A DNA stretch of 50,492 nt from Marmoricola sp. (GTDB taxonomy: Bacteria > Actinomycetota > Actinomycetes > Propionibacteriales > Nocardioidaceae): contig NZ_JAOPXP010000193.1 in NCBI RefSeq assembly GCF_025965085.1, positions 1-50,492 on the forward strand, in the 5' to 3' direction. The position numbers and the translations under genes were made by a program. Below are positions 8,770 through 25,820 of the stretch, in pieces. A model generated the notes under the pieces. That model did no database searches and was not told the DNA's origin. It saw only the letters and a program-made list of their open reading frames with translations. Numbering within the stretch: position 1 is the stretch's first letter; every line of letters starts with the position of its first letter.

Positions 8770-9946
8770 CGAGAAGTCTTCCCAAGCTGTCGTAGATGCC
8801 GGTCACGCGCGCCCGGGCCGGATCGCGCATCAGTCCCTCGACGACGGCGACCCTGGAGCGAGCCACGAACACCTGGTTGCGAAAGGCGTACACCACCGTG
8901 TCCCCCGTCCGAGCCACACCCTCGGGGTCGTCCAGCTCGCCGTAGTAGTCGATCGCCTCGGCGGGGTGGTGGGCGGCGGTGAGCACGGCTCCGGCCTCCT
9001 GTCCTTGGCCTGCAGCGACGACAAGCGCCTGGCGGGTCCGGCCGCGGGGATAGAAGCCGCCGCCGAACGTGAAGGCGCGCTCGCCGTGCCGATGCGAGAC
9101 CTCGCTGACGTAGACGACTGCAGGAACCTCGGGCTGGTCGCTGACCGCGTGCAGCGGGGTGGACCCGGTGAGCGCGCTCCCGGGCTCGACCGTGGTGGCA
9201 CCCTCTGCCTTGGTGATGCTCATGGTGGTCACTGACGTGATGCCCGGCGCATTGATCTCCACGAACCCCTCACGAGCGCGGGAGATGCGTTCCGCGGCCG
9301 CGCGCAGAAGCGCGAGCTTGCCCGTCACGATCACCTGCTCGTCGGCGTAGTCATAGTCCAGGCACGGGTGCGTGGTGACCCCGCGGACGTGCAGGTGGCG
9401 CAACGAGGCGAGCTGCGTCAGCGCGGCGTCGAGATCCGCGAGCTCGAAGCCACCGTGCTGGCCGGGGTGGTAGGTCTCGACAGGGTCGTACATGCGCAGC
9501 AGGACGTCCTGACGGTGACCGCTCCTGCCAGACGCTTCGTCGAGCCGTCGGGCCTGCTCCAGGTTGAAGACGGTCACGGTCGCCGGTCGGTGGTCGATGA
9601 CCTCGTCGACGTCGGACGCCGCGAGGCCCACGAGGTGGCCGACGTGGGCAACGTCCAGCCCGGCCTGCCACAGCACGCGTGCCTCATCCACGTCGACAGC
9701 GACGAAGCGCGTGAGTCCGGCATCCCGAATCAACTGTGAGACGCGCGGGTTCCGGCCGTACTGCTTGGTCATCACGTTGGCGACGAGGCCGTGCCCCCGG
9801 GCGGCCTCAGCGGTCACTCGAGCGTTCTCCGCGATGGTGTCGGCGTCGAGAACGTAGGTGTTCGGCCTGATCACCTCCTCGCGGTGCAGCCGTACCGCTG
9901 CCTCCACCAGAGCGGGGTTGCGGCGGCGGGTCGACTCAAGAAACAT
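8759..9946 (-). CDS. yhfX: YhfX-type PLP enzyme (alanine racemase fold), copy 1
   Basis: A 395-residue fold-type III PLP enzyme. The PLP lysine is K61 in MTKQYGRNP, matching KANAYGHG of alanine racemase. NAPG, HAVSDQP and FGGGFYPRGR are further shared blocks. I chose ATG 9946 because its paralogue at 19972-21156 starts identically (MFxExTxRRNPAL), although an in-frame GTG lies 9 bp upstream. It overlaps the PRD gene by 11 bp. YhfX activity is uncertain; racemisation or another PLP reaction on an aminated substrate is plausible. Confidence 0.87.
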   Translation of the reverse strand: MFLESTRRRNPALVEAAVRLHREEVIRPNTYVLDADTIAENARVTAEAARGHGLVANVMTKQYGRNPRVSQLIRDAGLTRFVAVDVDEARVLWQAGLDVAHVGHLVGLAASDVDEVIDHRPATVTVFNLEQARRLDEASGRSGHRQDVLLRMYDPVETYHPGQHGGFELADLDAALTQLASLRHLHVRGVTTHPCLDYDYADEQVIVTGKLALLRAAAERISRAREGFVEINAPGITSVTTMSITKAEGATTVEPGSALTGSTPLHAVSDQPEVPAVVYVSEVSHRHGERAFTFGGGFYPRGRTRQALVVAAGQGQEAGAVLTAAHHPAEAIDYYGELDDPEGVARTGDTVVYAFRNQVFVARSRVAVVEGLMRDPARARVTGIYDSLGRLLDGA

Positions 9947-10340
9947 CGTCGCCACGAAGCGTGCACACGTGGGCGGTGATGTAGAACAACTCGGCGTCAG
10001 GCAGCGGTCCGCCGATGTCGCCCTCCATCTCCCGCGCGATCTGCTCGACGGCGGCCTTCTCCTCGGTCCTCGAGCTCAGTTCCTCCACCAGCACGTGTGG
10101 CACCGCCGGGGCGGACTCGTCGCGCCGGACCCGGGTGAAGGCGACGGCGACGTGGGTGATGAACATGGCCGCTCCCTCGGACTCAGGATCGATGCCGAAG
10201 CGCGCCGCGAGGCTGCCGACGAACTCCTCGGCAGCACGGCGGGCCGCTCCATCGATCTGCCCGTGGCCCTCGAGGAGCTCGAGCCTTCCGGCATGACCTT
10301 CCCGGAATCGGCGGGTCATGGTCACAGCGGCCTCGCTCAT
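9936..10340 (-). CDS. yhfY: PRD-domain protein (YhfY-like)
   Basis: A 134-residue protein consisting of little more than one PTS regulation domain. Conserved histidine candidates are H63 (FITHVAV) and H124 (YITAHV). PRDs in antiterminators and activators are phosphorylated on histidine by HPr or EIIB, so this could be a phosphorylation sensor or accessory subunit. There is no RNA-binding or HTH domain. It starts in an ATGA overlap with the oxidoreductase stop and overlaps yhfX. An EI/HPr pair nearby with no enzyme II makes this PRD a natural phosphoryl target. Confidence 0.75.
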   Translation of the reverse strand: MSEAAVTMTRRFREGHAGRLELLEGHGQIDGAARRAAEEFVGSLAARFGIDPESEGAAMFITHVAVAFTRVRRDESAPAVPHVLVEELSSRTEEKAAVEQIAREMEGDIGGPLPDAELFYITAHVCTLRGDDVS

Positions 10341-12892: not shown

Positions 12893-14176
12893 CTAACCGA
12901 GGCCCAGCGTCTGCAGGGCATCGGACGTGAGAGCTACCAAGAGAAATCCGAACACCGGGACGGCCATCGGCATGATGGGCCGGCCCTTCGCCTCGTTGAA
13001 GGCGTACATCACCACGACGATGCCGGCGCCGATGACGCCGCCGAGGCCCGATGCAGCCACGACCGCTCCGGCCAGGATCGAGACGCCGGGGACGACGTCG
13101 AGCGCGTCCCGGGCAGCCGACCCGATGCCGTGCAACCGGGGGCGGGTCATCAGCAGGTGCATGACGCGTCGGAGGGAGCCGAGCTCGACTGCGACCAGCG
13201 CGAGTCCCGCCGCCACCGCGCCCACCGGCTCACGCACGAGGTAGCCGGCGCCGAGGTACCAGTCGGGGTAACCGTCCTGGTTCCACACCCCGCTGACGGT
13301 GGAGGACATCGCGATCAGCGGGATGAACGCCACCACGGAGTAGAACGCGACTGCTGCCGCCGCCTCGTGACTGCCGACTGCGAGGAGGACCAGCTGAAGC
13401 GGCTCCCCGGCGAGCCAACCCTGCGAGGCAGCGACAGTGATGAGCACCGGCGGCAGGACCAAGTAGGGCCAGTGCCGGTGCACCCGCTTGACGCCCTCTG
13501 CGTACAGCTGGTCGCCCACCGCCGGGGTGCGGGGGCCGGTGAAGGCGCTGGCCACCAAGCCCAGTGTCATCAGCCCCAACGTCAGGGCCCCGGACTTCGC
13601 GGACAGGCTGTGGTCCGAGCCGGTGAGCGCCGTCTCCAAGATCCGCCAGACCGCGAGCGTCAGGACCGCCGCAGCGACACCCCATCGCACGCCGAACTGG
13701 TGGGCGATCGCGACTGCCACCAGGAACGGGAAGGTGGCCGCCACGGGAGCGAACATCGCCTGCAGCGCCCCTTCGTAGTCGGGGAGATGCTGCATCCCGA
13801 AGGCAGCTGCCGCGATGACCACGGTCGCCACGGCCCCGAACGCGAAGGACGCAGCGAGGACCGTCCATGTGCGCTGGAACCACAGCCCGAGAACGTCACT
13901 GGAGAGGAGGATGATGTGGATGACCATGATCCCGGTGGCCAGCGAGTACGGGAGCGCGTACGCAAGCACGAAGCCGATGCCGATGGCGTACGAGTACTTC
14001 GCGAGGTCGACTCTGGGACGCTGGTTCAACCACAGCTCGGGGACCGAGGTCCGCAGGCCGTCGTGGTAGACCGCGGCGGTCTTGTGGACCGCCAGTGCTG
14101 AGGCAGCGGCGAGGAGGCCGAAGACCAGGACTGCTGCGAGAGGGAGCTGGAAGGAGCCGATGGAGAGCTCGCTCAC
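12893..14176 (-). CDS. yhfT: YhfT-family polytopic membrane protein, copy 1
   Basis: A 427-residue inner-membrane protein with about 11-12 hydrophobic segments, no Walker motifs and no known transporter signature. It ends with MYAFNEAKGRPIMPMAVPVFGF, closely matched by MANEALGRPVIRMAAAPSA in the paralogue at 24096-25379. It begins at a GTG overlapping the yhfU stop (GTGA). Constant pairing of YhfT with YhfU suggests a transporter or channel complex. The function of the family is unknown to me. Confidence 0.82.
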   Translation of the reverse strand: MSELSIGSFQLPLAAVLVFGLLAAASALAVHKTAAVYHDGLRTSVPELWLNQRPRVDLAKYSYAIGIGFVLAYALPYSLATGIMVIHIILLSSDVLGLWFQRTWTVLAASFAFGAVATVVIAAAAFGMQHLPDYEGALQAMFAPVAATFPFLVAVAIAHQFGVRWGVAAAVLTLAVWRILETALTGSDHSLSAKSGALTLGLMTLGLVASAFTGPRTPAVGDQLYAEGVKRVHRHWPYLVLPPVLITVAASQGWLAGEPLQLVLLAVGSHEAAAAVAFYSVVAFIPLIAMSSTVSGVWNQDGYPDWYLGAGYLVREPVGAVAAGLALVAVELGSLRRVMHLLMTRPRLHGIGSAARDALDVVPGVSILAGAVVAASGLGGVIGAGIVVVMYAFNEAKGRPIMPMAVPVFGFLLVALTSDALQTLGLG

Positions 14177-14583: not shown

Positions 14584-15774
14584 CTAGCCTGCACCGTCGG
14601 TCGCCTGGGCCGCGGCCCGCTCCATCACGGCCTGCTCACGGGCAGCCTGGATGGTGTCGGTGAGCACCCGGATGACGGTGTCTGGCCCGGCGCGGAACGG
14701 GCTGACCCGCACCATTCGCCGAGCGAGCTCGGGATCGGCCTCGCACATGGCGCGCGAGAGCCGGTAGACCAGCATGTGCGTGTCGAAGCGCGACTGCGAG
14801 CCGACGGGGTGCGTGGCAGCGCCGAAGCGCGTGGCCACCTTGATCACGTCCTCGGCGATCGGCTCCTCGAGCTCCACCAGCAGCGACCGCTCCTGGTGGT
14901 TGCCAGGGTGTACGGCGCGCACACCCGGGATCGGGTTCTGCGCCACCTGCTCCAGCACGGTCTCGACGGCCTCGCTGGCCACCGCGAACATCACCGGAGC
15001 CTGGACGACGCCACGCAGGGTGCTCAGGGCGATGGGCCCCTGGATCTTGGTGCCACCGGAGTAGGCGTCGTCGCGAAGCTGGGCGATCAGGTCCGCACGG
15101 CCGACGACACAGCCGACACCCGGCTCCCCGAGCAGCTTGAACAAAGAGAACGCCGACAGGTCGGCACCCAGCTGCGTGCCGATGCGCGGGACCTGCAGGG
15201 CGGTGTAGTTGTCGTCCACCATCACCAGGCACCCGGGAGCGAGCTCCCGGACGTCGGCGATCACCTGCTCGACGTCGTAGTGATCGGCGAGCATCTGTCG
15301 CGAGTGCTGCAGGTAGACCATGCTCGGTCCCTGCTCGAACGCGGCGCGACGCGCGGCCCGGTCGTTGAGGTCGACAGCCTTCAGCTGGAGACCCATGGCC
15401 CGGAACGTGACCGACGTGGTTGCGTACACCGGAACGTCGTGGAGGACCACGCGGGCGCCCGGCGACAACGTCCCCATCAGGGCAGACCTGATGGCGCCGG
15501 TGCCGGCGCCGGCGACGAGCGTGGCGTCCTCCGCGCCGAAGAGCTCGGCGAGGACCGCCTCGACCCTCGCTGTGGTCCGCGGCCGGCCCAGACCCGCAGG
15601 TGCGCCGTAGTCACCGGCCTCCATCGCGAGGTCACCGTCGAAGTGCTGGTGCATGATGTCGACGAGCTTGAACTGGAGCTGGGTTGCCTCGGCGATCGTC
15701 AGCTGTCGCAGTGGGTGCGTCACCAGGCGCCCGGCTCCTTCGACTCCGCTGCGCGAGAGCTCGACGCCTGTCAC
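14584..15774 (-). CDS. yhfS: YhfS-like PLP-dependent aminotransferase-fold enzyme
   Basis: A 396-residue fold-type I PLP enzyme. K213 (AFSLFKLLGEPGVG) is the internal-aldimine lysine. D187/D188 (VMVDDNY) should contact the PLP pyridine nitrogen. GAGTGAI near residue 90 is the phosphate-binding loop. A GTG at 15774 overlaps the binding-protein stop (GTGA) and is a much better start than the further-upstream in-frame ATG. It fits YhfS of the yhf operon. The reaction (transamination, beta/gamma elimination or C-C/C-S lyase) is not determinable here. Confidence 0.82.
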   Translation of the reverse strand: MTGVELSRSGVEGAGRLVTHPLRQLTIAEATQLQFKLVDIMHQHFDGDLAMEAGDYGAPAGLGRPRTTARVEAVLAELFGAEDATLVAGAGTGAIRSALMGTLSPGARVVLHDVPVYATTSVTFRAMGLQLKAVDLNDRAARRAAFEQGPSMVYLQHSRQMLADHYDVEQVIADVRELAPGCLVMVDDNYTALQVPRIGTQLGADLSAFSLFKLLGEPGVGCVVGRADLIAQLRDDAYSGGTKIQGPIALSTLRGVVQAPVMFAVASEAVETVLEQVAQNPIPGVRAVHPGNHQERSLLVELEEPIAEDVIKVATRFGAATHPVGSQSRFDTHMLVYRLSRAMCEADPELARRMVRVSPFRAGPDTVIRVLTDTIQAAREQAVMERAAAQATDGAG

Positions 15775-16901
15775 TTCGCCAGCGCCGACATGATCTCGGC
15801 CGACGGCTTCTGGCCGAGGCTGTCCATCCATGCCTGCTCGAGCGTCGCCTTGGACGCCTTCACCGGGTCGACGGTGACGAAGGCCGGCGCCTCCTTGCCC
15901 ATCAGGGACAGCACGGCGAGGCGCAGCAGGATCTGGCCCTCCAGGTACGGCTTGTCAGCGGCAGCACCGAAGAGGTTCTCGCCCTTCGCGATCTGGAGGT
16001 CGTTCGTCGCGTCGAGATCGTGCGTCACGACCTTGGTGGTCGTGTTGCCTGCGGCGCGCAGGGCGTCGAGGACCCCGGTCGCCGCTGCGCTCCACGACAC
16101 GTAGATGCCGTCGAGATCGGGGTGCTGCGTCAGCATGCCGTTGGCGATCTCCGAGGTTGATCCCTCCGAGGTGAAGCCGGCTTCGGCCGCGATCTTGATG
16201 TCAGGGTGCTCCTGCTCGATCACGGCCTTGAAGTACTGGTCGCGGTTGTTCGTCACGTAGAACTGGGCGTCGTGGAAGATGTAGCCGATCTTGCCCTTGT
16301 CACCGATCGCGTCCGCCATCAGTTCGGCCGCCGCGCGGCCCATGCCGAAGTGATCGCCGGTGACGATGGAGACGTATTCCTTGCCGGCCTTGTAACCCTC
16401 GATGCCGTTGTCCACGAAGAGCAGCTTGACGCCCTTCTGCACCGCGGGACGGAACGCCTCCGCGGCGGATACAGGATCGACGGGCAGCGTCACGATGGCG
16501 TCGGGCGACTTCGACATCGCCGTCTCGACCTGGTCGGCCTGCTTGGCGGCGTCGAACTCCGCCGAGGTGGTGAGCACGATGTCGACGCCCAGCTTCTTGG
16601 CCTCCGCCTCGATGCCCTGCTCCATCGACTTGAACCAGGTCGATGACCCGCCGTGCAGGATCGCGACCTTGTAGCCGGCGGTCTTTGCCTTCTCCAGGTC
16701 CGCCCCGGTCAGCTCCTTCACCGAGTCAGCCGGCGTCGCGGTCTCCCCGTTGGGACCGGTGGTGGCACGAGAGAGATCAAAGTTGCTCGCCTTGGCGTCG
16801 CCCTTGGTGCCGCTGTTGCTGCTGCTACTACCGCAGCCCGCGAACGCCACACACATGGCAGCCAGGGCCGCCACCGCTACTGCCTTCTTGTGCTTGATCA
16901 C
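15771..16901 (-). CDS. Sugar-type ABC substrate-binding lipoprotein, copy 1
   Basis: A 376-residue extracytoplasmic binding protein of the periplasmic-binding-protein/LacI-fold type. A lipobox (VAFAGC, C23) anchors it to the membrane. The start is GTG 16901 preceded by GAGGAG. Typical blocks are GIEAEAKKLGVDI, DAIVTLPVDPV, VSIVTGDHFGMGR and HPDLDGIYVSW. It opens the yhf-type operon and overlaps yhfS, yet no permease or ATPase gene follows. It probably feeds the single ABC permease/ATPase at 25821-28351. It shares much sequence pattern with the second binding protein at 28408-29550 (HDAxFYVTNxRDQxFK). Confidence 0.88.
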   Translation of the reverse strand: MIKHKKAVAVAALAAMCVAFAGCGSSSSNSGTKGDAKASNFDLSRATTGPNGETATPADSVKELTGADLEKAKTAGYKVAILHGGSSTWFKSMEQGIEAEAKKLGVDIVLTTSAEFDAAKQADQVETAMSKSPDAIVTLPVDPVSAAEAFRPAVQKGVKLLFVDNGIEGYKAGKEYVSIVTGDHFGMGRAAAELMADAIGDKGKIGYIFHDAQFYVTNNRDQYFKAVIEQEHPDIKIAAEAGFTSEGSTSEIANGMLTQHPDLDGIYVSWSAAATGVLDALRAAGNTTTKVVTHDLDATNDLQIAKGENLFGAAADKPYLEGQILLRLAVLSLMGKEAPAFVTVDPVKASKATLEQAWMDSLGQKPSAEIMSALAK

Positions 16902-17040: not shown

Positions 17041-18693
17041 TCAGCCGTCGATCTTCAGCAACGCCCGCACGCCCGCCCGCGCCGCTGCCGGTTCCTCAGC
17101 GCCGAGGGCGATCTGCGCCGCCTGCTGGCACCCGGTCATGGTGAGCTCGAACAGCGCCGCACGTACGGCCGGGATCGACACCGGCGCCATGGAGAGGGAC
17201 GAGACGCCGACGCCTGCCAGGACGAGGGCCAGCAGTGGGTCGCTGGCAGCCTCGCCGCAGACACTGACCGACTTGCCCGATCGCTTGGCCGCTTCCGCCG
17301 CCATCGAGACCAGGCGCAGCAGGGCCGGCTGCCAGGGGTCGAGGAGCACCGCGAGTTCGTCCAGCTGCCGGTCTGCCGCGAAGGTGTACTGCGCGAGGTC
17401 GTTGGTCCCGATGCTCAGGAAGTCGCACTCCGCCAGCACCCGGTCAGCGGACAGGACCAGCGCCGGGACCTCTGCCATCACTCCGACCTCCCGCAACCCG
17501 TGAGCGCGGGCCTGAGCGACGAAGGAGCGGACCTCGGCCACCGTGGCGACCATCGGCGCCATCACCGCCGCAGTGGCCCCGGCCAGCTGTTCGGCAGTCG
17601 CCACGGCGCGAAGCTGTTCATCGACCAGCTCCTGGTAGTGCGCCGCGATTCGATAGCCGCGGACTCCCAGGGCCGGGTTCGGCTCGTGACCGACGTCCAC
17701 GAAACCAAGGGGCTTGTCCGAGCCCGCATCCAGGGTGCGGAAGACGACGCGGCGCCCGGCGGCGCTGCGCAGGAGTGCGCTGTAGACCTCGACCTGCTCG
17801 TCGAAGCTGGGCGCGTCGTCGCGGTCGAGGAACAGGAACTCCGTCCGGAAAAGGCCGACCCCCTCGCAGTCCGTGGCGGCCAGGACGTCGTGGTCGCCAC
17901 CCAGGTTGGCCAGCAGCGCCACCGGCGTGCCGTCGGCCGTCCGGCCGGGGCCGGCCAGCGCGCCGATCCTGGCCTTGCTGGCCGCGTCGGCCGCCAAGTG
18001 CTCGTCGACCTGTTCTCGAGTGGGTGCGGCCACCACGACACCCGTGCCCCCGTCGAGCAGGACGACGGTGTCGTCCGCCAGCTCGCAGGCGCCGGCACAT
18101 CCGACGACGGCGGGGATGCCCAAGGACTTCGCGACGATGGCCGTGTGTCCGGTGGCGCCGCCTCGCTGAGTCACCAGGCCCACCACCGAAGGGCCGAGCA
18201 CCACGAGGTCGGCGGGTGCGAGCTCGTCGGCCACGATGATCCTCGGCGACCTGGGTGCCACCCGCGAAGGCATCGCGACGCCCAGGACCGACGCCCGGAT
18301 GCGGTAGCTGAGGTCGTCCAGGTCCTCGATGCGATCTGCGAAGTACGGACCGGCGGCTGCGAGCTGCTCACGGAACTCGGAAAAGGAGTCCTCCACCGCG
18401 TCCGTTCGGGTCGAGCCGTCACCGATCCGGCGCTTGATGGCATCAAGCAGGGTGGGATCCCCGACGATCAGCGCCTGCGCCTGCAGCACGGCGGCTATGT
18501 CGTGCGACACCTCCTGCGCCTGGGCCTCGAGATGGGCCGCCACGCTGGCGATCGCACGCTCGACGTCGCCCACGGCGCTCGCGGCGTCTGCGTCGGTTCG
18601 CACGTCAGGCGGCAGTGCCGGTCGTTTACGCAGGACCAGCACCGGCGCCGCGACCGACCCGGGGCTCACGGCGACTCCTTGGAGCTCGCGCAC
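17041..18693 (-). CDS. ptsI: PTS enzyme I (phosphoenolpyruvate-protein phosphotransferase)
   Basis: A 550-residue soluble enzyme that takes phosphate from phosphoenolpyruvate and passes it to HPr. The phosphohistidine is H183 in GGATGHTAIVAKSLGIPAVVG. PEP-binding blocks LFRTEFLFLDRDDAPSF and VSVCGEAASD are present, and the length fits EI without a GAF domain. It starts at GTG 18693, 4 bp after HPr, with GGAGG inside the last HPr codons, so the two are co-translated. No EIIA, EIIB or EIIC gene is in the window. Confidence 0.93.
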   Translation of the reverse strand: MRELQGVAVSPGSVAAPVLVLRKRPALPPDVRTDADAASAVGDVERAIASVAAHLEAQAQEVSHDIAAVLQAQALIVGDPTLLDAIKRRIGDGSTRTDAVEDSFSEFREQLAAAGPYFADRIEDLDDLSYRIRASVLGVAMPSRVAPRSPRIIVADELAPADLVVLGPSVVGLVTQRGGATGHTAIVAKSLGIPAVVGCAGACELADDTVVLLDGGTGVVVAAPTREQVDEHLAADAASKARIGALAGPGRTADGTPVALLANLGGDHDVLAATDCEGVGLFRTEFLFLDRDDAPSFDEQVEVYSALLRSAAGRRVVFRTLDAGSDKPLGFVDVGHEPNPALGVRGYRIAAHYQELVDEQLRAVATAEQLAGATAAVMAPMVATVAEVRSFVAQARAHGLREVGVMAEVPALVLSADRVLAECDFLSIGTNDLAQYTFAADRQLDELAVLLDPWQPALLRLVSMAAEAAKRSGKSVSVCGEAASDPLLALVLAGVGVSSLSMAPVSIPAVRAALFELTMTGCQQAAQIALGAEEPAAARAGVRALLKIDG

Positions 18694-18697
18694 GGAG

Positions 18698-18973
18698 CTA
18701 GTCCTCCCGGTCGAGGTCCTGGCCGAGCAGGGCGCTCAGCTCGTCGAGCGCACCCACTGCGAGCTCGTCCTCGGCGGTCAGGACGACCTCCTCGCCGTAC
18801 CCGACGTGAAGCCCGAGGACGGAGAGGATGCTGCTGGCGACGACAGCGGGGCCGTCAGGGCGACCAATGGTGATGCGATGCGGGTGGGCCGCGGCCGCCC
18901 GGACGAACGCGGCAGCTGGCCGGGCGTGCAAGCCGCTGCTGGATCCGACCTGCACTCGACGCTCGAATGGCAT
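18698..18973 (-). CDS. ptsH: Phosphocarrier protein HPr
   Basis: A 91-residue HPr. H16 in SGLHARPA is the phosphorylation site, and serines 47-48 in VVASSILSVLGL correspond to the regulatory serine region. I chose ATG 18973 with GAGGAA upstream, since it gives the usual HPr N-terminus; a longer in-frame version is unlikely. It heads the HPr-EI pair and has a predicted operator about 35 bp upstream. It may phosphorylate the PRD protein (9936-10340) or a remote enzyme II. Confidence 0.92.
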   Translation of the reverse strand: MPFERRVQVGSSSGLHARPAAAFVRAAAAHPHRITIGRPDGPAVVASSILSVLGLHVGYGEEVVLTAEDELAVGALDELSALLGQDLDRED

Positions 18974-19005: not shown

Positions 19006-19026
19006 TCGCGCAAGAACTTTGCTCAC
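19006..19026. promoter_or_regulatory. Predicted 21-bp DeoR-type operator, site 2
   Basis: TCGCGCA, 7 nt (AGAACTT), TGCTCAC. The right half matches the perfect site in 6 of 7 positions and the GCA-N7-TGC geometry is identical. It is 33 bp upstream of the HPr ATG and about 70 bp downstream of the DeoR-family gene's stop, so it should govern ptsH-ptsI. Confidence 0.6.
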
Positions 19027-19093: not shown

Positions 19094-19870
19094 TCAGCGG
19101 GGCTCGGCGAGGATGACCTTGGTGCCGTGCGCGCGGATGGCAGCCACCTCGTTGGTCCCGTCAGGGGCCGGGTCCGTGATCACGACGTCCACGTCGGACA
19201 GCGGGCACACCTGGGCGAACGCTGCACGACCCAGTTTCGAGTGGTCGGCCACGACGACACGGTTGCGTGCCCGTTGGAGCAGCAGGCTGTTGGTCCGCGC
19301 CTCGAGCTCGTCGAGCAGGGTGAGGCCGGCTGCGGCGGTGATGCCGTCGACCCCGACGACGGTCACGTCCAGATTCACCTTCTCGATGGTGGCGTCCGCA
19401 AAGGGGCCCACCAGCTCCAGTGAGGCCGGCCTGATGAAGCCGCCCGTCATCACCAGGTTGTAGCCCGGCTGCATGGAGAAGTCGTAGGCGATCGCCAGAG
19501 AATTGGTCACGATCGTGACGTCCTTCAACCGGCGCTTCATGAGCTCACGCGCGACGGCGGCCATCGTCGTACCGCCGGTGAGCCCGACCGCCATGCCGGG
19601 CTCGATCAGGTCCACTGCTGCGTTGGCGATCCACTGCTTGCCCTCTTGCTGCTGCCCGATCCGGTGGCGCAGGGGCAGCTCGGAGAAGATCCCTGAGGAT
19701 GTGGCTCCCCCGTGCACCCGCGAGAGCAGGTGCTGGTTGTGCAACTCCTGCAGGTCACGACGCGCCGTGGCCGGAGAGACGTCCATCTCCTCGGCCAGCG
19801 TGTTGACGTCGAGGTCACCATCACGCCCAAGCCGCGTCAGGATGTACTCCCAGCGTTCAGCCTTGCGCAC
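19094..19870 (-). CDS. DeoR/GlpR-family transcriptional regulator
   Basis: A 258-residue sugar-phosphate-responsive regulator. The N-terminal winged HTH (residues 1-55) has LAEEMDVSPATARRDLQELHNQHLLSRVHGG, the DeoR signature. The DeoRC effector domain follows, with GLTGGTTM and VTNSLA, the sugar-phosphate-binding loops. I chose GTG 19870 because GGAGG precedes it with 5-nt spacing; an ATG 30 bp upstream has a poorer site. It sits in the centre of the gene set, between HPr and yhfX2, and is the best candidate for binding the four ATGAGCA-N7-TGCTCAT sites. The effector is presumably a phosphorylated pathway intermediate. Confidence 0.9.
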   Translation of the reverse strand: MRKAERWEYILTRLGRDGDLDVNTLAEEMDVSPATARRDLQELHNQHLLSRVHGGATSSGIFSELPLRHRIGQQQEGKQWIANAAVDLIEPGMAVGLTGGTTMAAVARELMKRRLKDVTIVTNSLAIAYDFSMQPGYNLVMTGGFIRPASLELVGPFADATIEKVNLDVTVVGVDGITAAAGLTLLDELEARTNSLLLQRARNRVVVADHSKLGRAAFAQVCPLSDVDVVITDPAPDGTNEVAAIRAHGTKVILAEPR

Positions 19871-19971
19871 GTGAGCCTCCTTGGTGTTTGAGTACCTCAT
19901 CCCCCCGAGCAGGTTAGCGTCGAAGGCGCGCCTCGCGGGGAAAGCTGACAGGGACTGGTTGGCCGCGCCCG

Positions 19972-21156
19972 TCAGTGCCCCAGCGGCCGGAGCGTGTCGT
20001 CGATGGCGAAGCCGTCACGGTTGAACAGCCCCACGACCTCGGGCGAACCCTGCACGTTCTGGACGACCGCAACCGATGCTCGCGAGACGAACACCTGGGA
20101 GCGGAACGAGTACACCGCGGTGTTGCCGACGGCGACGGGTGCCTCCGTCTCGACGGTGCCGTGGTAGTCGATCGCATCGGGCGGGTTCGGCTGCACACGC
20201 GTCGCCACCGGCCCGTCCCCGTCACCGTAGACGAGAGCGGTCTCGGCCCGGGAGCGCGCGTAGAAGCCACCACCGAGGGTGTTGGCCAGTGGCCCCTCCA
20301 CGTGCGTGACCTCGGTGACGTACACCATGGCGGGGAGCTCCGGCTGGTCGGAGACCGCGTGCAGCGGCGTCTGCCCGAGCAGACAGCTGCCTGGCTCGGC
20401 CTGCGTCGCTCCCGCCGCCGCCAACGTCGGCAGGGTGGCGATGCACGTGGCACTGGGGGCGTTCACAACCGTCACGTCGATACCGAGCCCGCGCAGCCGC
20501 TCGGCGCTGCGCAGCAGCGTGCCGAGGTTCGGGGTCGGCTCGAGGGCAGCGGTCTCCGGGTTCCACAGCACGCAGGGGAACGAGGTCACCCCGATCACCC
20601 GCACCCCGGGCAGGGCGGCGACGGCCTGTGCCGTCTCCTCCAGCGCAGCCTCGGGGATTCCACCGCGCTGGGCAGGGTAGAAGACGTCCTCCGGGCCCTC
20701 GACGCGTAGCAGGATCGACTGCACGACGCCGGCTGCGACCGCTGCACGCGACAGGTTGGCAGCCTGGGCGTAGTTCTGCACGGTGACCTGGTCCGGACTC
20801 ATCTCGATGGCGTGGCCGGCCTCCTTGCGGGGCACCTGGACGAGGTGGCCCAGGTGGCCGATGTCCACACCCGCTCGGTGCAGGACGCGCGCCTCGTCGA
20901 AGTCGACGACGACGGCCTTGGGGATGCCCGCGCGGGCCACGGCCAGCGCCACGACGGGATTGCGCCCCCACTGCTTGGTCATCTGGAACAGCGTGAGCCC
21001 CGCCTCGGCGCCGGCCTTGGCCACGAGACCTGCATTGGCTGCGACCGTGTCCACGTCGACGACATAACAGTTGGAGGGGATCGCCCCCCGCTGGTGCAGC
21101 TTGACGGCCGCGTCGATCAGAGCCGGGTTGCGGCGCTGCGTGACTTCGATGAACAT
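19972..21156 (-). CDS. yhfX: YhfX-type PLP enzyme (alanine racemase fold), copy 2
   Basis: A 394-residue paralogue of the protein at 8759-9946. K61 in MTKQWGRNP is at the identical position, and HAVSDQPELPAMVYVTEV and LGGGFYARSR are shared. The ATG at 21156 follows AGGAG. It lies 39 bp after the SIS gene and 101 bp before the DeoR-family gene, so these may form a small operon driven from the promoter at 22303-22332. Two diverged copies in one regulon suggest two related substrates, or two steps such as opposite stereochemistry. Confidence 0.87.
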   Translation of the reverse strand: MFIEVTQRRNPALIDAAVKLHQRGAIPSNCYVVDVDTVAANAGLVAKAGAEAGLTLFQMTKQWGRNPVVALAVARAGIPKAVVVDFDEARVLHRAGVDIGHLGHLVQVPRKEAGHAIEMSPDQVTVQNYAQAANLSRAAVAAGVVQSILLRVEGPEDVFYPAQRGGIPEAALEETAQAVAALPGVRVIGVTSFPCVLWNPETAALEPTPNLGTLLRSAERLRGLGIDVTVVNAPSATCIATLPTLAAAGATQAEPGSCLLGQTPLHAVSDQPELPAMVYVTEVTHVEGPLANTLGGGFYARSRAETALVYGDGDGPVATRVQPNPPDAIDYHGTVETEAPVAVGNTAVYSFRSQVFVSRASVAVVQNVQGSPEVVGLFNRDGFAIDDTLRPLGH

Positions 21157-21195: not shown

Positions 21196-22245
21196 CTAGG
21201 CAGTGACAATGACGGGCACGGTGTTGCGGAACTCCCCGGGTACGACGCCGTTGCGCGCGGCGAGCTCCGCGGAGAGCAACTGCATCGGCAGCACCTCGAG
21301 GATCGGCCTGAGCGCCGCGGGCGTCGGAGGCAGGCCGACGAACCGGTCGCCCCTGACGCCTTCCCCGTCCTCGGGACCCACCACGACGACCGGCGCGCCG
21401 TAGCTGCGCAGCTCACCCACGAGGTTGTCGTCGAGGGTCCGCACGCCCGGCTGGTCACCGGTGAACACGATCACTGCCGTCTCCGTCGAGATGACCTCGA
21501 CCGCACCGTGCCGGAACTGGGCGCTGCCACTGCCTTCGCAGTTGCGCTTCGCTGCCTCCTTCAGCAGGAGGCCAGTCGCGAACGCACTGGCGATCGAAGC
21601 ACCGCGCCCCACGGCGTAGATCTGCTCGGCCCCGCCGATGTGGTCGGCAACTGCCGGGGTCTCTTCGCTCAGACGGGGGATCTGCTTCTCGATCGTGTCC
21701 GCGACCTGGGAGATGCCCTTGAGTACCTCGTCGACGTCGCCGTCCCCCAGCTCCGCAGCGAGCAGCGCGAGCACCGCAACGGTGGATGAATAGGTCTGCA
21801 CCGCCACGGAGAGGTCGCCATCGCACGCCATGGGGAGGACGAGGTCGGCCGCCGTGGCGACGCTGCTGTCCAGGTTGCGGGTGATCGCGACGGTGGGTAC
21901 GGATGACGGGCGCATCCCTTGGAGTTCGCGCGCCTCGACGGTCTCGCCGGACTGCGAGACGAGCAGGAGAGCCTCGAGGGGACGGCTCAGGTCGGAGAGG
22001 TTCTCCGAGAGGTATCCCGTCTCCTCGATGAGGTGTCCGGGCACCGCTGCATCCAGCAGCCGCCGGGTGGCCTGCAGCGCGAAGAGCGAGGCGCCCATTC
22101 CGCTGGAGTGGACGACCTTCCCCCGCAGCAGGTCGTGCGCCCCGCCGAGCAGCGTCCGCCCTCCCTGGCTGCCGTAGACGTCGACCACCCGACGCAGCGC
22201 GTCGGGCTGGGCGTCGATGTTCTGCAGGAAGGTGTTGCTCGTCAA
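21196..22245 (-). CDS. SIS-domain sugar-phosphate isomerase/deaminase
   Basis: A protein of about 349 residues with two tandem SIS domains, like the C-terminal half of GlmS, the fructoselysine-6-P deglycase FrlB or AgaS. Domain 1 has VHSSGMGASLFAL and LLVSQSGETVEA, the sugar-phosphate serine loops. Domain 2 has IYAVGRGASIASA and RHGAVEVI, then the catalytic-type end AARNGV near the C-terminus. The start is uncertain: TTG 22245 has a GGTGGGGAAG site, while a GTG at 22281 would add 12 residues. It is preceded by a recognisable promoter and a perfect operator. Such proteins release or shift the amino group of amino-sugar phosphates or fructosamine phosphates, a strong hint about the pathway substrate. 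Confidence 0.85.
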   Translation of the reverse strand: MTSNTFLQNIDAQPDALRRVVDVYGSQGGRTLLGGAHDLLRGKVVHSSGMGASLFALQATRRLLDAAVPGHLIEETGYLSENLSDLSRPLEALLLVSQSGETVEARELQGMRPSSVPTVAITRNLDSSVATAADLVLPMACDGDLSVAVQTYSSTVAVLALLAAELGDGDVDEVLKGISQVADTIEKQIPRLSEETPAVADHIGGAEQIYAVGRGASIASAFATGLLLKEAAKRNCEGSGSAQFRHGAVEVISTETAVIVFTGDQPGVRTLDDNLVGELRSYGAPVVVVGPEDGEGVRGDRFVGLPPTPAALRPILEVLPMQLLSAELAARNGVVPGEFRNTVPVIVTA

Positions 22246-22302
22246 TTTGCTTCCCCACCTCAGAGGTTGGCGGCACTTCACTCAGCGCCACCCTGAAACC
22301 AA

Positions 22303-22334: not shown

Positions 22335-22355
22335 ATGAGCATAAATTTTGCTCAT
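22335..22355. promoter_or_regulatory. Perfect 21-bp DeoR-type operator, site 3
   Basis: ATGAGCA, 7 nt (TAAATTT), TGCTCAT: a perfect 7+7+7 inverted repeat in an AT-rich island between the SIS gene and the end of the SDR gene. It is the best copy of the element and defines the motif used to find the three others. It lies next to the -35 box of the SIS promoter. Confidence 0.75.
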
Positions 22356-22364: not shown

Positions 22365-23150
22365 TCAGTGCTGCCCCACCGAGGAACCGCCGTCCATGAC
22401 GAGCACGCTGCCGTTGCAGTAGGAGGCTTCGTCGGAGGCCATGAACAGGCAGCCGTTCGCGATCTCCGCCGGGTCCGCAGGACGACCTGCGGGCGTGTGT
22501 CGCCGGGCAGTCTCGGGGTCGCCGAAGTCGTCCAGAGCCCCTGCGGCAAGGGGCGTCTGGACGTAGCCAGGCGCGATGCAATTGGCGCGGACACCACGGT
22601 CGCCGTACGTCGTTGCGGTGCTGCGCGTCAGGCTGATGACCCCTGCCTTGGCCGCCGCGTAGGCGTGCGCCGCCGTCGTACCCAGGAACCCCGAGATGCT
22701 GGAGATGTTGACGATCGCGCCCCCGCCCGCGGCAACCATGGCCGGCAGCACGAGTCTGCTCATGCCGGACACCGAGCCCAGGTTGATGTCGAGCACGTGT
22801 CGCCAGTCCTCGTCGGTGGTGGCGATGACGTCCCCCATGCTGCCGGGCCGACGTCCGAGGTAGGAGTAGCCGACTCCGGCGGCGTTCACGAGCACGTCGA
22901 CGCTCTCGAGCCAGCTCGTGGCGTGGTCGACTGCCCGGACGCGGTCCTCCTCGACCGAGAGATCGGCAGCGACGACGCCGACGACGCCGTCACCGATCTC
23001 GTCCGCGCAGTCGCGGAGCTTGCTCTCGGTCCACCCGACCAGGACCACCCTCGCGCCCTCGTCAACGAACCGGTGGGCGGTCGCGCGTCCGATCCCGGAG
23101 CCACCCCCGGTGATGAGTGCCGTGCGACCTTCGAGCCTGCGATCAGCCAA
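22365..23150 (-). CDS. Short-chain dehydrogenase/reductase
   Basis: A 261-residue classical SDR. The NAD(P) loop TGGGSGIG lies at 14-21, NAAG at 89-92, and the catalytic serine near 151 with Y164-A-A-A-K168. The C-terminal MDGGSS is typical. It starts at TTG 23150, preceded by GGAGAAGG, and overlaps the PTE-family gene by 8 bp. It is the last gene of the M20-ABC-yhf operon and probably oxidises or reduces a sugar-derived hydroxyl. Confidence 0.9.
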   Translation of the reverse strand: MADRRLEGRTALITGGGSGIGRATAHRFVDEGARVVLVGWTESKLRDCADEIGDGVVGVVAADLSVEEDRVRAVDHATSWLESVDVLVNAAGVGYSYLGRRPGSMGDVIATTDEDWRHVLDINLGSVSGMSRLVLPAMVAAGGGAIVNISSISGFLGTTAAHAYAAAKAGVISLTRSTATTYGDRGVRANCIAPGYVQTPLAAGALDDFGDPETARRHTPAGRPADPAEIANGCLFMASDEASYCNGSVLVMDGGSSVGQH

Positions 23151-24099
23151 GACCTTCTCCTTCGGTGAGGGGCTCCCCCGCCGCGGGCTGTGCCCCGGTC
23201 AGGAAGCGGATGGGGTTCTCACGGGTCAGCAGCCGGACTGTCGCCTCGTCGACCCCCGCCTCCCGCAGTCGCGGCAGGAAGGAGTTGAACAGATGGCCGT
23301 AGCCACCGGTGGGGCGACTCAGATAGCTGTCGCGCGAGATGTCGTTGGAGAGCAGTGCCCGGTCGGCGTGGCCGGACGCGATCAGATCCAGCAGACAGGC
23401 GAGTCGCACCTCGTCGCTCTGGAAGCTGGTCTTGCCGATCGTGTCGAAGGCGACGTACGCCCCCGCAGCAGCGATCTGCTCGTGGACGGTGCGATCGCTG
23501 TGCAGGTCCTGGTGCCCGATGCTGACGCGGCCGGGATCGAGGCCCTCTCCGCCGCAGAGCAGGTCGAGCTGTGCCAGCCCCCCGACACCGTCCTGGGCAT
23601 GGGTCGCAACCGAGACGTCGCACGCCTTTGCTGCCCGGGCGGCGGCTCGCAGGCACTTCTCCTCGGCCGGCGTCGGCACGTGGCCATGGCTGCCGATCTC
23701 ACCCAGCAGACCGGCACGAACGTCGGTGCCGTCCATCCCGACGAGCACATCAGCGACCAGTGTCTCCGTCAGCCCGTCCAGGTCGAGCTGGTCGACCTCG
23801 GCAGGATGGAAGGGCTCCCAGTAGTGCCCGGTGGCCGCGATGACCACGACGCCGGTCCGCTCCGAAAGCTGGCGCAGTCCGGCCGCGTTCCGCCCCATGT
23901 TCCGTCCGCTGAGCTCGATGAGCGCTCCGAGGCCGCCGGTCCGGCGCAGCTCGGTCAACTCATGACCGATGCGCCGCTCCTCGCCGAGCACCACCTGGCC
24001 CTCCTCCCGCTCCAGGGTGAGGAAGAGATGCTCGTGTGCGAGCACCGCGCCCTTGACCGCCGACAGGTCGACCGGCCCGGTCACCGACTGCACCGTCAT
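23143..24099 (-). CDS. php: Phosphotriesterase-family metal hydrolase (Php/YhfV-like)
   Basis: A 318-residue amidohydrolase-superfamily TIM barrel with a binuclear metal site. Ligands are H22 and H24 (AHEHLF), the bridging position E134 (LLGEIGSHG), then ATHAQDG, SIGHQD and the catalytic aspartate in LLSNDISRD. The bridging residue is Glu, as in PTE homology proteins, rather than carboxylated Lys. It begins in an ATGA overlap with the yhfT2 stop. Relatives act as lactonases, esterases or amidohydrolases; the substrate here is unknown. Confidence 0.88.
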   Translation of the reverse strand: MTVQSVTGPVDLSAVKGAVLAHEHLFLTLEREEGQVVLGEERRIGHELTELRRTGGLGALIELSGRNMGRNAAGLRQLSERTGVVVIAATGHYWEPFHPAEVDQLDLDGLTETLVADVLVGMDGTDVRAGLLGEIGSHGHVPTPAEEKCLRAAARAAKACDVSVATHAQDGVGGLAQLDLLCGGEGLDPGRVSIGHQDLHSDRTVHEQIAAAGAYVAFDTIGKTSFQSDEVRLACLLDLIASGHADRALLSNDISRDSYLSRPTGGYGHLFNSFLPRLREAGVDEATVRLLTRENPIRFLTGAQPAAGEPLTEGEGLG

Positions 24100-25379
24100 G
24101 AGCGCTCCAGCATCGAGACGAACGCCTCCGGTGGGATGAGGTTGAGCAGGACCACGGTGATCAAGAGCGCCGACGGGGCGGCGGCCATGCGTATGACGGG
24201 CCGGCCCAACGCCTCGTTGGCCATGAACAGGCCACCGACCAGGGCGAACCCGACAGCACCCAGGGACTGTGCGGCGATCAGCAGGCATCCGCCCGACAGA
24301 CCGAGCTCCAGCGTCGTGTAGAGGGCGTTGCGGAGGTGGTCGGTCGTGGTCCGGATGCACGGGTAGCGGATCGCCACGTCGTTCGCACGACGCAGCAGGC
24401 AGACCTCGAGTGCGATGACAAGAGCACCCAGGACCGCCGCGGTCGCGAGGTTCGGGGACAGGTATCCCACCGGGTAGACGAGGGTGAGGCCGGCGGCGCC
24501 GTACGTCCCGGAGGCCATCGCGACCATCACGATCAGTGGGAGGTAGCCAAGCGCCCGAAAGCCATCCAGCATCGCGGCTCCCCCGACATCGCCGTCGGCG
24601 AGCAGGAACAGCGACACCTCACTGCCTCCGTAGACCTGCAGGTGGCAGGCAGCGCCGGTGAGCGCGCCCAGCACCATGAGCAACGGCAGCGCCCGGCGCA
24701 GCCGGGCGGAGTTGGCGGCCTGCAGCTCGGCGAAGGGCGAGGCGCCGGCTCGGGGCCCCTGCTCACGATGGGCCAGGCGGAAGGTCGGTACGAGAAGCAC
24801 GAGGTAGAGCCCCACCCCGAGGATGAGCGGCAACCACATCCACGCTCCGGTACCGCCTGTCCTGGCCACGACCACGGTGGCAGCCACCACGACGCCGAGG
24901 ACCGCCGCGCCGCGGAGCCGTCCGAGCTGCTCGGCAGCCGCGAGGGCCGGGAAGAAGGGCAGCATCAGGACCAGGGCGTCGGCCAGCGTGCTCAGGTACG
25001 GCATCGGCGAGTGGTCGACCGACTCGAGGGCGCGATGCAGGCCGAGAACAGCGGCGACCGCTGCCGCGCCCCAGCATGCGCCGAGCACGACCGCCAACCA
25101 GCGTCGCGTCGACCGCAGCCCGATGGCGTCGGTTGGCAGGAGCAGCAGGAACGGGTTGAGCAGTCCGCTGAGCACACTCATCACGGCACCGAACCCGAAC
25201 ACCGACGGACCCGCCAGGCGGGCGGCCTGCTTCGCCGTCGCCTTGCGGCCCTCGTGGGTGGCCACGGCGATCCGTGCCGTGGCGCGGACCCCGTCGTTGA
25301 ACACCGCCAGTCCCAGGTGGGCCACCAAGGATCCTGTGGCCGCGAGGAGCACCAGGACCACGGCCCCGTCCATCGTCAT
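24096..25379 (-). CDS. yhfT: YhfT-family polytopic membrane protein, copy 2
   Basis: A 427-residue membrane protein, exactly as long as copy 1, with about 11-12 hydrophobic segments. It shares the N-terminal pattern (short hydrophobic helix, then a loop with DGVRA) and the C-terminal MANEALGRPVIRMA block. The ATG at 25379 has AGGGA upstream. It follows yhfU2 by 35 bp and overlaps php by four bases. A full ABC importer sits in the same operon, so YhfT may export, sense or move a second compound rather than duplicate the uptake role. Confidence 0.82.
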   Translation of the reverse strand: MTMDGAVVLVLLAATGSLVAHLGLAVFNDGVRATARIAVATHEGRKATAKQAARLAGPSVFGFGAVMSVLSGLLNPFLLLLPTDAIGLRSTRRWLAVVLGACWGAAAVAAVLGLHRALESVDHSPMPYLSTLADALVLMLPFFPALAAAEQLGRLRGAAVLGVVVAATVVVARTGGTGAWMWLPLILGVGLYLVLLVPTFRLAHREQGPRAGASPFAELQAANSARLRRALPLLMVLGALTGAACHLQVYGGSEVSLFLLADGDVGGAAMLDGFRALGYLPLIVMVAMASGTYGAAGLTLVYPVGYLSPNLATAAVLGALVIALEVCLLRRANDVAIRYPCIRTTTDHLRNALYTTLELGLSGGCLLIAAQSLGAVGFALVGGLFMANEALGRPVIRMAAAPSALLITVVLLNLIPPEAFVSMLERS

Positions 25380-25414: not shown

Positions 25415-25777
25415 TCAGCTCTTTTCCGCAGAGCCGGACAGCACGTCGACAAAGACGCCCACCACGGCGGCGGTGTTGTCCACCGGGAAGCCGAAGGCGG
25501 CCTTGCCGGCCGCCAGCAGAGCGTTCAGCTCGTCCGCGGTGGGAACGCTCCGTCCGAAGGCGTGGCACCGGTCCGGACCGAGCAGAGGCACCAGGACGCC
25601 CAGAGCTGCTCCGGCTCCCGTGTGGCAGCTGCCGAGGTAGTACGCGCCAGCCTCCGTGGCCACGACCGCTGCGGCCTCGAAGTCGCTGCTGATCTCGACC
25701 TCCACGCCGGTGCCGAGCCCGTTCACCAGGATCCTGCTCGTCTCCGCCTTGCCGATGCCGCCAACCAAGATCTTGAT
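25415..25777 (-). CDS. yhfU: YhfU-family protein (DUF2620), copy 2, probable ATC start
   Basis: A protein of about 120 residues, paralogous to 14173-14544. The shared core is YYLGSCHTGAGAAL with C51, preceded by SDFEAA. The glycine loop here is LVGGIGKAETSR, lacking the cysteine of copy 1. No ATG, GTG, TTG or CTG lies in frame where the protein should begin. The codon aligned with copy 1's GTG is GAC, and the next is ATC at 25777, seven bases after GGAG. Use of ATC as start would give MKILVGGIGK. The alternative GTG at 25852 would overlap the ATPase gene and add 25 unconserved residues. The start is therefore tentative. Confidence 0.72.
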   Translation of the reverse strand: MKILVGGIGKAETSRILVNGLGTGVEVEISSDFEAAAVVATEAGAYYLGSCHTGAGAALGVLVPLLGPDRCHAFGRSVPTADELNALLAAGKAAFGFPVDNTAAVVGVFVDVLSGSAEKS

Positions 25778-25820
25778 GTCAGTTCTCCGTCCGTGTTCTG
25801 TACGAGTGGGGCTTTCTCCG

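Follow-up and report, generated by a model that had tools for sequence, protein, structure and literature searches.

The enzyme I (EI) and HPr genes described here probably serve the yhf-type gene set among which they lie, with a stand-alone PRD protein as the first acceptor of their phosphate. For the arrangement as a whole, found in a stretch of 50,492 nucleotides (the window), the best explanation is a dedicated EI-HPr relay running via the PRD protein and then YhfU to a substrate, a reading whose chances we place a little short of even. In established PTS chemistry, PEP phosphorylates EI and EI~P phosphorylates HPr; here, HPr and EI would act as a dedicated phosphoryl donor for the yhf gene set, with phosphate passing from PEP to H183 of EI and then to H16 of HPr. 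From HPr~P it would move to H63 of the PRD protein and, in a less secure step, to the loop residue C52 of YhfU, whose final acceptor would be a substrate that YhfU and the membrane protein YhfT handle jointly. PRD, YhfU and YhfT would then be working counterparts of EIIA, EIIB and EIIC, with no detectable relation to them. The relay would supply a sugar phosphate, the usual substrate of SIS-, epimerase- and phosphomutase-like enzymes, because a Pfam scan of 23 ORFs in 6885-30869 gave no match to any sugar kinase family.

The EI-HPr pair and its cluster

The EI gene matched all three EI domains (Pfam) and scored 359.6 bits with TIGR01417 (cut-off 341.7), and its alignment with E. coli PtsI retains the motif GGATGHTAIVAK, with H183 lying within GGATGH. 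HPr passed its family profiles and keeps GLHARPA with H16. These profiles and the alignments with PtsI and PtsH bear out the first-pass annotation, made from the sequence alone, which had described an intact pair and had started HPr at the ATG at 18973, a start preferred over that of the longer ORF from 19003. The two genes are spaced by 4 bases. No GAF domain, the mark sought for the regulatory PTS-Ntr type, was matched in the window EI (Pfam). The window copy is the single HPr match in its own genome, and the window gene is the sole EI among three PEP-utilizers_C matches. Of the other two, one is a PEP synthase (NF005057, 1229.5 bits against a cut-off of 598) and one shows a likeness to CitE-type lyases below the cut-off.

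The surrounding cluster (Table 1) includes two YhfU-YhfT pairs and, as had been reported, an ABC transporter, which is accompanied by two binding proteins. The lone PRD protein with H63 and H124 was likewise recovered, scoring 28.7 bits with PF00874 (cut-off 23); H63 is invariant in 10/10 aligned sequences. A PRD gene is present in all ten yhf clusters examined, including four (L158-L161) in which it adjoins YhfU according to an HMM search and had been missed by tblastn.

The operator predicted upstream of HPr is plausible, and similar sites precede the SIS and M20 genes. The exact pattern, drawn post hoc, occurs at three places in the window against 0.17 expected by chance, a figure that is not independent because the pattern was fitted to the same three places; with two mismatches allowed it is no commoner than chance (40 matches, 52.6 expected). 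At a related locus (L017), operator-like sites with one or two mismatches lie between the SIS and DeoR genes and upstream of HPr; the number of such matches there is at chance level (23 found, 24 expected), so that their position alone counts in favour.

Table 1. Genes and candidate regulatory sites of the cluster, in window coordinates
Feature	Position	Strand	Basis and remarks
Ribulose-phosphate 3-epimerase-like protein	6885..7649	-	PF00834
YhfW, phosphopentomutase-like	7543..8769	-	PF01676; NF009049 above cut-off
YhfX-2	8759..9955	-	PF21279, PF01168
Stand-alone PRD protein, YhfY type (H63, H124)	9936..10340	-	PF00874; 10-sequence alignment
YhfT-2, predicted membrane protein	12893..14176	-	PF10797; family hydropathy; start overlaps YhfU-2 stop
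YhfU-2 (DUF2620), invariant C52	14173..14544	-	PF10941, alignment; RpiB fold in model (model and fold search)
YhfS-like PLP enzyme	14584..15831	-	PF22475; ORF start probably too early
Periplasmic binding protein 2	15771..16901	-	PF13407
Enzyme I, 550 aa, active-site H183	17041..18693	-	PF05524, PF00391, PF02896; TIGR01417; aligned with E. coli PtsI
HPr, 91 aa, phospho-acceptor H16	18698..18973	-	PF00381 and TIGR01003 above cut-off; GLHARPA kept in alignment with E. coli PtsH
Candidate operator TGAGCA-N7-TGCGCG upstream of HPr	19007..19025	-	Post hoc pattern
DeoR-family regulator, probably controlling the cluster	19094..19900	-	PF08220, PF00455; 65% identical relative adjoins HPr-EI in L017
YhfX-1, PLP alanine-racemase-like	19972..21156	-	PF21279, PF01168
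SIS-domain protein	21196..22281	-	PF01380; NCBIfam likeness below cut-offs (GlmS, FrlB, other sugar-phosphate enzymes)
Palindromic candidate operator TGAGCA-N7-TGCTCA upstream of SIS gene	22336..22354	n/a (.)	Post hoc pattern
Phosphotriesterase homology protein, Php type	23143..24360	-	PF02126; ORF start probably too early
YhfT-1, predicted membrane protein	24096..25379	-	PF10797
YhfU-1 (DUF2620)	25415..25852	-	PF10941, alignment; actual start probably internal, near 25780
ABC transporter ATPase, two ABC stretches	25821..27824	-	PF00005
ABC permease	27380..28351	-	PF02653
Periplasmic binding protein 1	28408..29550	-	PF13407
M20 amidohydrolase/peptidase	29547..30869	-	PF01546
Candidate operator upstream of M20 gene	30955..30973	-	Post hoc pattern

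YhfU, YhfT and the proposed path of phosphate beyond PRD

The cysteine of YhfU (C52) is invariant in 15/15 sequences. A model built from two sequences (pLDDT 84) predicts the RpiB fold for YhfU, with C52 ending the strand 47-52 and preceding the helix 56-67. The model found RpiB in Foldseek (E 2.1e-4) and matched RpiB/LacAB structures with Z up to 13.1 over 113 residues; rows 1-22 of the VIA-align comparison are RpiB kin (Z 8.5-13.1), and the EIIB entries 3czc, 3nbm and 1iib reach Z 7.5, 7.0 and 6.8. Sequence profiles gave little signal. A PDB profile search with YhfU returned ten matches, all with E of at least 0.39. The hhalign comparison with E. coli RpiB aligned C52 with C66 at a probability of 1.3-1.6%, a YhfS control giving 1.8%. 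Weak Pfam matches to LacAB_rpiB (PF02502, 2/13 YhfU members, best E 0.065) and Gly_rich_SFCGS (2/13, best E 0.011) mean little, since DUF7907 was also matched in 8/13 members (best E 0.024). A literature search on the SFCGS link of YhfU found nothing relevant, and no study of the function of YhfU, YhfT or DUF2620 was found among open-licence PMC papers.

No EIIB family was among the Pfam matches of the 13 YhfU members (E up to 10), and hhalign against GAT- and fructose-type EIIB gave a probability below 1%. The C-x-[ST]-G-x-G loop had suggested that YhfU is an EIIB relative; with negative profiles and an RpiB-like model, this idea was given up in favour of a mere analogy. For YhfT, hhalign produced no profile signal with Ula- and Sgc-type (EIIC-GAT) or fructose-type EIIC, although among the controls Ula-Sgc scored 100% and fructose-Sgc was silent as well. 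YhfT had no PDB sequence match (E up to 10), and its AlphaFold model from the two window sequences reached a pLDDT of only 41. We only infer a phospho-cysteine on YhfU, because EIIB and EIIC profile likeness is absent and the model is RpiB-like, with the EIIB entries scoring far lower. The onward passage of phosphate via YhfU to a substrate is possible but somewhat doubtful.

The main rival is a regulatory relay that ends at PRD, to which we give a smaller though substantial share of belief. Here, HPr~P would phosphorylate the PRD protein and go no further, YhfU would be a sugar-handling RpiB relative and no phosphocarrier, and the PRD protein, which has no DNA-binding part, would modulate YhfT/YhfU, the ABC transporter or DeoR/YhfZ according to the supply of PEP. 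PRD domains are chiefly known as regulatory targets, classically phosphorylated by HPr/EIIB, and the RpiB fold of the YhfU model fits such an ending. The ABC importer encoded in the cluster also favors it, making group translocation unnecessary for uptake. However, the window PRD protein carries no second Pfam domain, and PRD keeps company with YhfU in every cluster examined although the regulators differ (DeoR here; YhfZ beside the yhf genes of E. coli and Cetobacterium). In addition, only the Cys loop of RpiB is retained in YhfU, and the cluster gave no match to a sugar kinase family. Precedents for a regulatory chain come from two sources, which describe EI-HPr chains in bacteria without PTS transporters (PMC2405797) and an incomplete PTS in Brucella (PMC2937029).

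Gene company and the search for enzyme II

Gene company speaks for the dedication of EI-HPr to the yhf gene set, through its recurrence in two further families, a separate EI lineage and the constant presence of PRD. In a genome of another family of the same class (G264), a single operon reads YhfU-PRD-YhfW-YhfX-HPr-EI, and in a third family (G068) YhfU shares a contig with PRD-HPr-EI at a distance of 7.9 kb. In the EI tree, the window EI groups with that of the yhf-type cluster of L017 (support 100/99), and the EIs of G264 and G068 are set apart from this pair, each group having a starred branch of its own, which makes a minimum of two changes necessary. The tree thus requires that EI-HPr joined yhf genes at least twice separately. 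The first-pass annotation had proposed that the phosphorelay serves signalling through PRD or feeds an unrecognised carrier such as YhfU/YhfT; this is borne out in part, as gene company supports a tie of EI-HPr to this gene set. The YhfU model has the fold of RpiB and not of EIIB, an outcome the first-pass annotation had not foreseen.

YhfT is present in 11/11 genomes with YhfU, and so is HPr, against 152/296 genomes in the class (p 5.5e-4; counted by genus, 5/5, p 0.03). PTS_EIIC is absent from all three genomes with EI-HPr inside the yhf cluster, whereas the other eight YhfU genomes carry one to five PTS_EIIC and encode HPr on a different contig or no closer than 176 kb; counted by genus, the PTS_EIIC contrast is only 3 vs 2 (p 0.1). 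A DUF2620 survey of 396 genomes of the phylum found it only in G000, G089 and, below threshold, G316, where tblastn detected no other yhf gene in the region. A scan of viral contigs found no relatives of YhfT or YhfU.

Within the lineage of the window EI, a classical enzyme II lies near HPr-EI in six of the seven named loci inspected (L018, L019, L020, L035, L073 and L095; not L026). Several observations count against a dedicated relay. L017, which combines a related DeoR-HPr-EI with yhf enzymes, shows no PRD, YhfU or YhfT in the 21.6 kb examined; in L026, G263 and G015, neither enzyme II (HMMs, in the stretches examined) nor yhf genes occur near EI; and G068 has further PTS parts, namely a DhaM-like EIIA-HPr-EI fusion and a mannose-family EIID, with no PTS_EIIC.

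The absence of EIIA, EIIB and EIIC was first remarked for the cluster; in the whole own-genome assembly, no match was found with PF02378 (EIIC), PF03611 (EIIC-GAT), PF02302 (IIB), PF00359 (EIIA-2, covering EIIA-Ntr) or PF03610 (EIIA-man, covering DhaM). The search covered these five families. The pair could have been the general PTS of a genome with many enzyme II genes elsewhere; it is indeed the only EI/HPr found, but the five families yielded none, and a role as no more than the general PTS is therefore unlikely. An ordinary or leftover PTS would imply a classical enzyme II that was lost, that falls within sequence absent from the assembly or that belongs to a family beyond these five (e.g. 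PF00358, PF00367, PF02255 or a glucitol family). The fragmentary state of the assembly (243 contigs, completeness 95.88%, contamination 2.51%) gives some room for this, as do the partial coverage of known enzyme II families, the PTS_EIIC of the congeners G237 and G295, and the occurrence of HPr-EI without a detected enzyme II beside it in G263 and G015, and of EI without either in L026. However, beyond the negative searches, the window EI stands with that of L017 and apart from that of the one congener placed in the tree, EI-HPr and the cluster genes have a candidate operator in common, and the same gene neighbours recur in genomes from two other families, all of which make this explanation improbable.

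Comparison with known systems

Like a classical PTS, the window encodes true EI and HPr members with intact active sites, together with a His protein, a Cys protein and a membrane protein, as in EIIA, EIIB and EIIC. In contrast, the His protein is a PRD domain, the Cys protein has, in the model, an RpiB fold, and the membrane protein belongs to the YhfT family, with no detectable profile likeness to the EIIC sets tested. PTS enzyme II is known to have more than one evolutionary type, several having been described, and PRD (as EIIA, via H63), YhfU (as EIIB, via phospho-C52) and YhfT (as the membrane part) may, more speculatively, form an unrecognised kind present in E. coli K-12, Vibrio, Cetobacterium and actinobacteria, which captured EI-HPr in some actinobacteria. 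If so, an isomerase fold would have given rise to an EIIB-like phosphocarrier and a regulatory domain to an EIIA-like one, and some EI-HPr pairs without enzyme II would be explained.

DhaKLM with DhaM, in which EI and HPr drive the phosphorylation of dihydroxyacetone in the cytosol and no enzyme II permease takes part, provides a precedent for such phosphorylation, although the window genome has no EIIA-man/DhaM match. RpiB and LacAB share the fold of the YhfU model, and the MAFFT alignment retains the equivalents of RpiB Cys66, Thr68 and Gly71, that is, the Cys-Ser/Thr-Gly loop. However, YhfU is shorter, its profile match to E. coli RpiB alone is not significant (1.3%), and it lacks equivalents of D9/H10, H99/N100 and R133/R137, which, with the loop residues, we take to be the isomerase catalytic residues (H99 is also mentioned in a PDB title). 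That YhfU itself isomerises sugar phosphates or belongs to a LacA/LacB-like heteromer, tied to the PTS only through phosphorylated substrates, would suit the modelled fold, the two paralogues in the window and the invariant Cys and Ser/Thr of the loop, but is very improbable given the missing residues and the PRD and EI-HPr neighbours that it leaves unexplained.

The Brucella incomplete PTS (EI-Ntr, NPr, EIIA-Ntr and EIIA-Man) likewise combines EI and HPr-like proteins with a genome without a PTS permease (PMC2937029). In contrast, the window genome has no EIIA-2/Ntr or EIIA-Man matches, its EI has no GAF domain, and its EI-HPr genes sit in a catabolic cluster.

A close counterpart is the E. 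coli K-12 operon yhfSTU-php-yhfWXYZ, annotated as uncharacterised or putative, which has YhfS, YhfT, YhfU, Php, YhfW, YhfX and the PRD protein YhfY in common with the window. It differs in having no EI/HPr, with the enzyme IIs of E. coli located elsewhere in the genome, and in having YhfZ as regulator where the window has a DeoR-type protein; the window in turn has YhfU-YhfT and YhfX duplicated and adds ABC transporter genes. If PRD-YhfU-YhfT takes phosphate from HPr, the E. coli yhf operon would gain a biochemical role, and since E. coli K-12 carries yhfY, yhfU and yhfT, the proposed relay is testable with its proteins.

EI, HPr and the yhf-type cluster

Both phospho-acceptors of the window's EI-HPr pair are intact, H183 in GGATGHTAIVAK of EI (aligned with E. 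coli PtsI) and H16 in GLHARPA of HPr (aligned with E. coli PtsH), and the closest relatives of the EI are actinobacterial. The two histidines, with the model matches tabulated below, bear out the intact pair of the first-pass annotation, whose lone PRD protein and ABC transporter (a permease, an ATPase and two binding proteins in the cluster) were also recovered. Along its strand, the cluster encodes M20, a binding protein, the ABC permease, the ATPase, YhfU-1, YhfT-1, a phosphotriesterase homologue, an SDR, a SIS protein, YhfX-1, DeoR, HPr, EI, the second binding protein, YhfS, YhfU-2, YhfT-2, an aldo-keto reductase, an amine oxidase-like protein, PRD, YhfX-2, YhfW and, at the 6885 end, an epimerase. 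The 23 ORFs scanned across this interval gave no match to a sugar kinase family, and sugar phosphates are the usual substrates of SIS, epimerase and phosphopentomutase-like proteins.

Features of the window discussed in the text
Feature	Position	Strand	Basis or remark
yhf-type cluster	30869 to 6885	-	Pfam scans of ORFs
HPr	18698-18973	-	Pfam and NCBIfam over cut-offs; longer ORF reaches 19003
EI	17041-18693	-	Pfam and NCBIfam over cut-offs
Stand-alone PRD protein	9936-10340	-	PF00874
YhfU	14173-14544	-	
YhfU	25415-25852	-	
Site before HPr	19007-19025		exact TGAGCR-N7-TGCKCR
Site before SIS	22336-22354		exact TGAGCR-N7-TGCKCR
Site before M20	30955-30973		exact TGAGCR-N7-TGCKCR
Saccharopine dehydrogenase match near cluster, then second phosphotriesterase homologue	31849-34538	+	dehydrogenase match sub-threshold
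412-aa protein with two TetR N-terminal domains	42807-44045	-	apparently two tandem TetR regulators in one frame
Short ORFs in close proximity, resembling parts of DDE transposase (below cut-off) and N-6 DNA methylase	44729-46314	+	possibly the degenerate remains of a mobile or restriction region

Because the operator pattern was fitted to the same three sites and is not significant when mismatches are allowed, joint DeoR control of these candidate sites is best called plausible.

In the assembly (3.55 Mb, 243 contigs, 95.88% completeness, 2.51% contamination; the window is contig 64), the only HPr match is that of the window, as is the only EI, the other two of three PEP-utilizers_C matches being a PEP synthase and a CitE-like lyase. 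A search for PTS_EIIC, EIIA-man, EIIA-2, EIIC-GAT and PTS_IIB returned no match in the genome; PF00358, PF00367, PF02255 and the glucitol families lay outside it, and we take glucitol to be the one of these able to do without a PF02378 EIIC, which the other three presumably need. The first-pass annotation had named as its counter-case the sole EI and HPr of a genome rich in enzyme II genes: the pair is indeed the only one, but the richness was not found, as five families lack a match in this incomplete assembly. The congeners G237 and G295 each possess PTS_EIIC and HPr, and an HPr there adjoins a fructose EIIB-EIIC protein.

Distribution and history of the association

DUF2620 (YhfU) is rare, occurring in 11 of 296 genomes of the class. 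All 11 also encode YhfT and HPr, versus 152 of 296 for HPr overall, giving a hypergeometric p of 5.5e-4 by genome and 0.03 by genus (5/5 vs 58/114). EI and HPr lie inside the yhf cluster in three of the 11, from three families (the window's genome, G068 and G264); in the other eight, HPr was found on another contig (four) or 176-431 kb away (four). G264 has a single operon of overlapping genes, YhfU-PRD-YhfW-YhfX-HPr-EI, which holds its sole HPr match, with YhfT on another contig, and in G068 7.9 kb separates PRD-HPr-EI from YhfU-YhfT. PTS_EIIC is absent from these three genomes, whereas the other eight carry one to five (p 0.006 by genome and 0.1 by genus). Two points caution against too simple a reading of this contrast: G068 also encodes a DhaM-like fusion of EIIA, HPr and EI, as well as a mannose-family EIID close to another HPr, and the enzyme II search in G264 used PF02378 only. 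Upstream of YhfU, G264 shows a weak saccharopine dehydrogenase match (locus L156, 1160-2101, +) comparable to that near the window cluster, and G068 encodes, directly upstream, a histidine-phosphatase-superfamily protein (locus L157, 1835-2890, -).

Among 80 EI loci from named genomes searched by tblastn, many with a short flank on one side, one had yhf-type genes: L017, from a Dactylosporangium MAG, where DeoR-HPr-EI faces SIS-YhfX-YhfW-epimerase, and where PRD, YhfU and YhfT were not found within the 21.6 kb examined. A 20-row EI tree contains two pairs, the window with L017 and G264 with G068 (100/99 for each), whose starred branches are separate, indicating that EI-HPr and yhf-type genes were joined at least twice. 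Six of seven inspected named loci of the window's EI lineage have classical enzyme II genes near HPr-EI (fructose EIIB-EIIC in L018, L019 and L035; EIIC and EIIA in L020; EIIC and IIB in L073; EIIA-1 in L095), and in the seventh, L026, neither HPr nor enzyme IIs of these kinds were seen. The stretches examined contain a fructose enzyme II in G061, G147 and G237 and no enzyme II by the HMMs used in G263 and G015; an HPr-EI pair lacking enzyme II neighbours is therefore nothing unusual in itself.

PRD, YhfU and YhfT

A PRD gene is present in all ten yhf clusters examined (window, G264, G068, G089, G252, G134, G075, E. coli, Cetobacterium and Vibrio; G113, G144, G154 and G174 were left out). Across the ten aligned sequences H63 is invariant; at position 124 the seven sequences from the window's class carry His and the remaining three carry Asn. 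In YhfU, the Cys of the loop G-x-C-x-[ST]-G-[AG]-G is invariant in two alignments (13 and 15 sequences).

Sequence profile comparisons alone did not reveal a relation between YhfU and RpiB. An AlphaFold model of YhfU-2, made from the two window paralogues, reached pLDDT 84.1 and pTM 0.82 (five models span 50.6-84.1); with it, RpiB or LacAB entries filled Foldseek ranks 1-18, and VIA-align gave Z 13.1 over 113 residues, with RpiB kin throughout rows 1-22 and PTS IIB entries at Z 6.8-7.5. In alignment with E. coli RpiB, the invariant Cys falls on Cys66, a catalytic residue of that enzyme, and residues aligned to D9/H10, H99/N100 and R133/R137 are missing. Given this model and these losses, YhfU looks like an RpiB derivative in which the Cys loop alone was retained. 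Two of 13 YhfU members weakly match Gly_rich_SFCGS in Pfam (best E 0.011); judging by its gene company, the SFCGS family may represent another gene set of similar design. YhfT is hydrophobic, and neither profile comparisons nor a PDB sequence search placed it.

A candidate phosphorelay and known systems

Transfer from PEP to EI and HPr is established chemistry and would be the first step here. HPr would then phosphorylate PRD-H63, as PRD domains are targets of HPr and the genes for PRD, HPr and EI lie side by side in G068. More speculatively, the phosphate may pass from PRD to YhfU-C52 and on to a substrate, YhfT supplying the membrane component; this step is suggested by a His and a Cys that do not vary, by the regular association of PRD with YhfU (and YhfT) and by the lack of a kinase. 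We hold this enzyme-II-like chain through PRD, YhfU and YhfT tentatively, at somewhat below even odds. Its main rival, a regulatory relay that ends at PRD and leaves uptake to the cluster's ABC transporter, is only slightly less probable. An ordinary or leftover PTS is improbable. On these odds as a whole, the single EI of the genome and the HPr-EI cases without enzyme II nearby pull in opposite directions.

Among open-licence PMC papers, we found no functional study of YhfT/YhfU, DUF2620, yhfZ/Y/X/W, DUF4310-4312/SFCGS, or RpiB with PTS. PMC2937029 describes a bacterium that has EI- and HPr-type proteins but lacks a PTS permease. In Lactobacillus rhamnosus, according to a table in PMC7513527, the accession numbers of a sigma-54 factor, a PRD regulator, a PRD protein and a DUF2620 protein follow one another almost without gaps, which would be consistent with PTS-type regulation of a yhf cluster in that species.

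In E. coli K-12, fructoselysine (frl) genes directly adjoin the yhf operon (locus L097, 1-12345), and the SIS protein of the window shows similarity, below the cut-offs, to GlmS models and weakly to FrlB-type ones; together these hint that the substrate is an aminated or glycated sugar. The window cluster shares its core with E. coli K-12 yhfSTU-php-yhfWXYZ, in which YhfY is the PRD protein and a kinase annotation is likewise absent. The same core is present on a Vibrio plasmid and on a Cetobacterium plasmid, the latter in the order YhfZ-PRD-DUF2620-YhfT.
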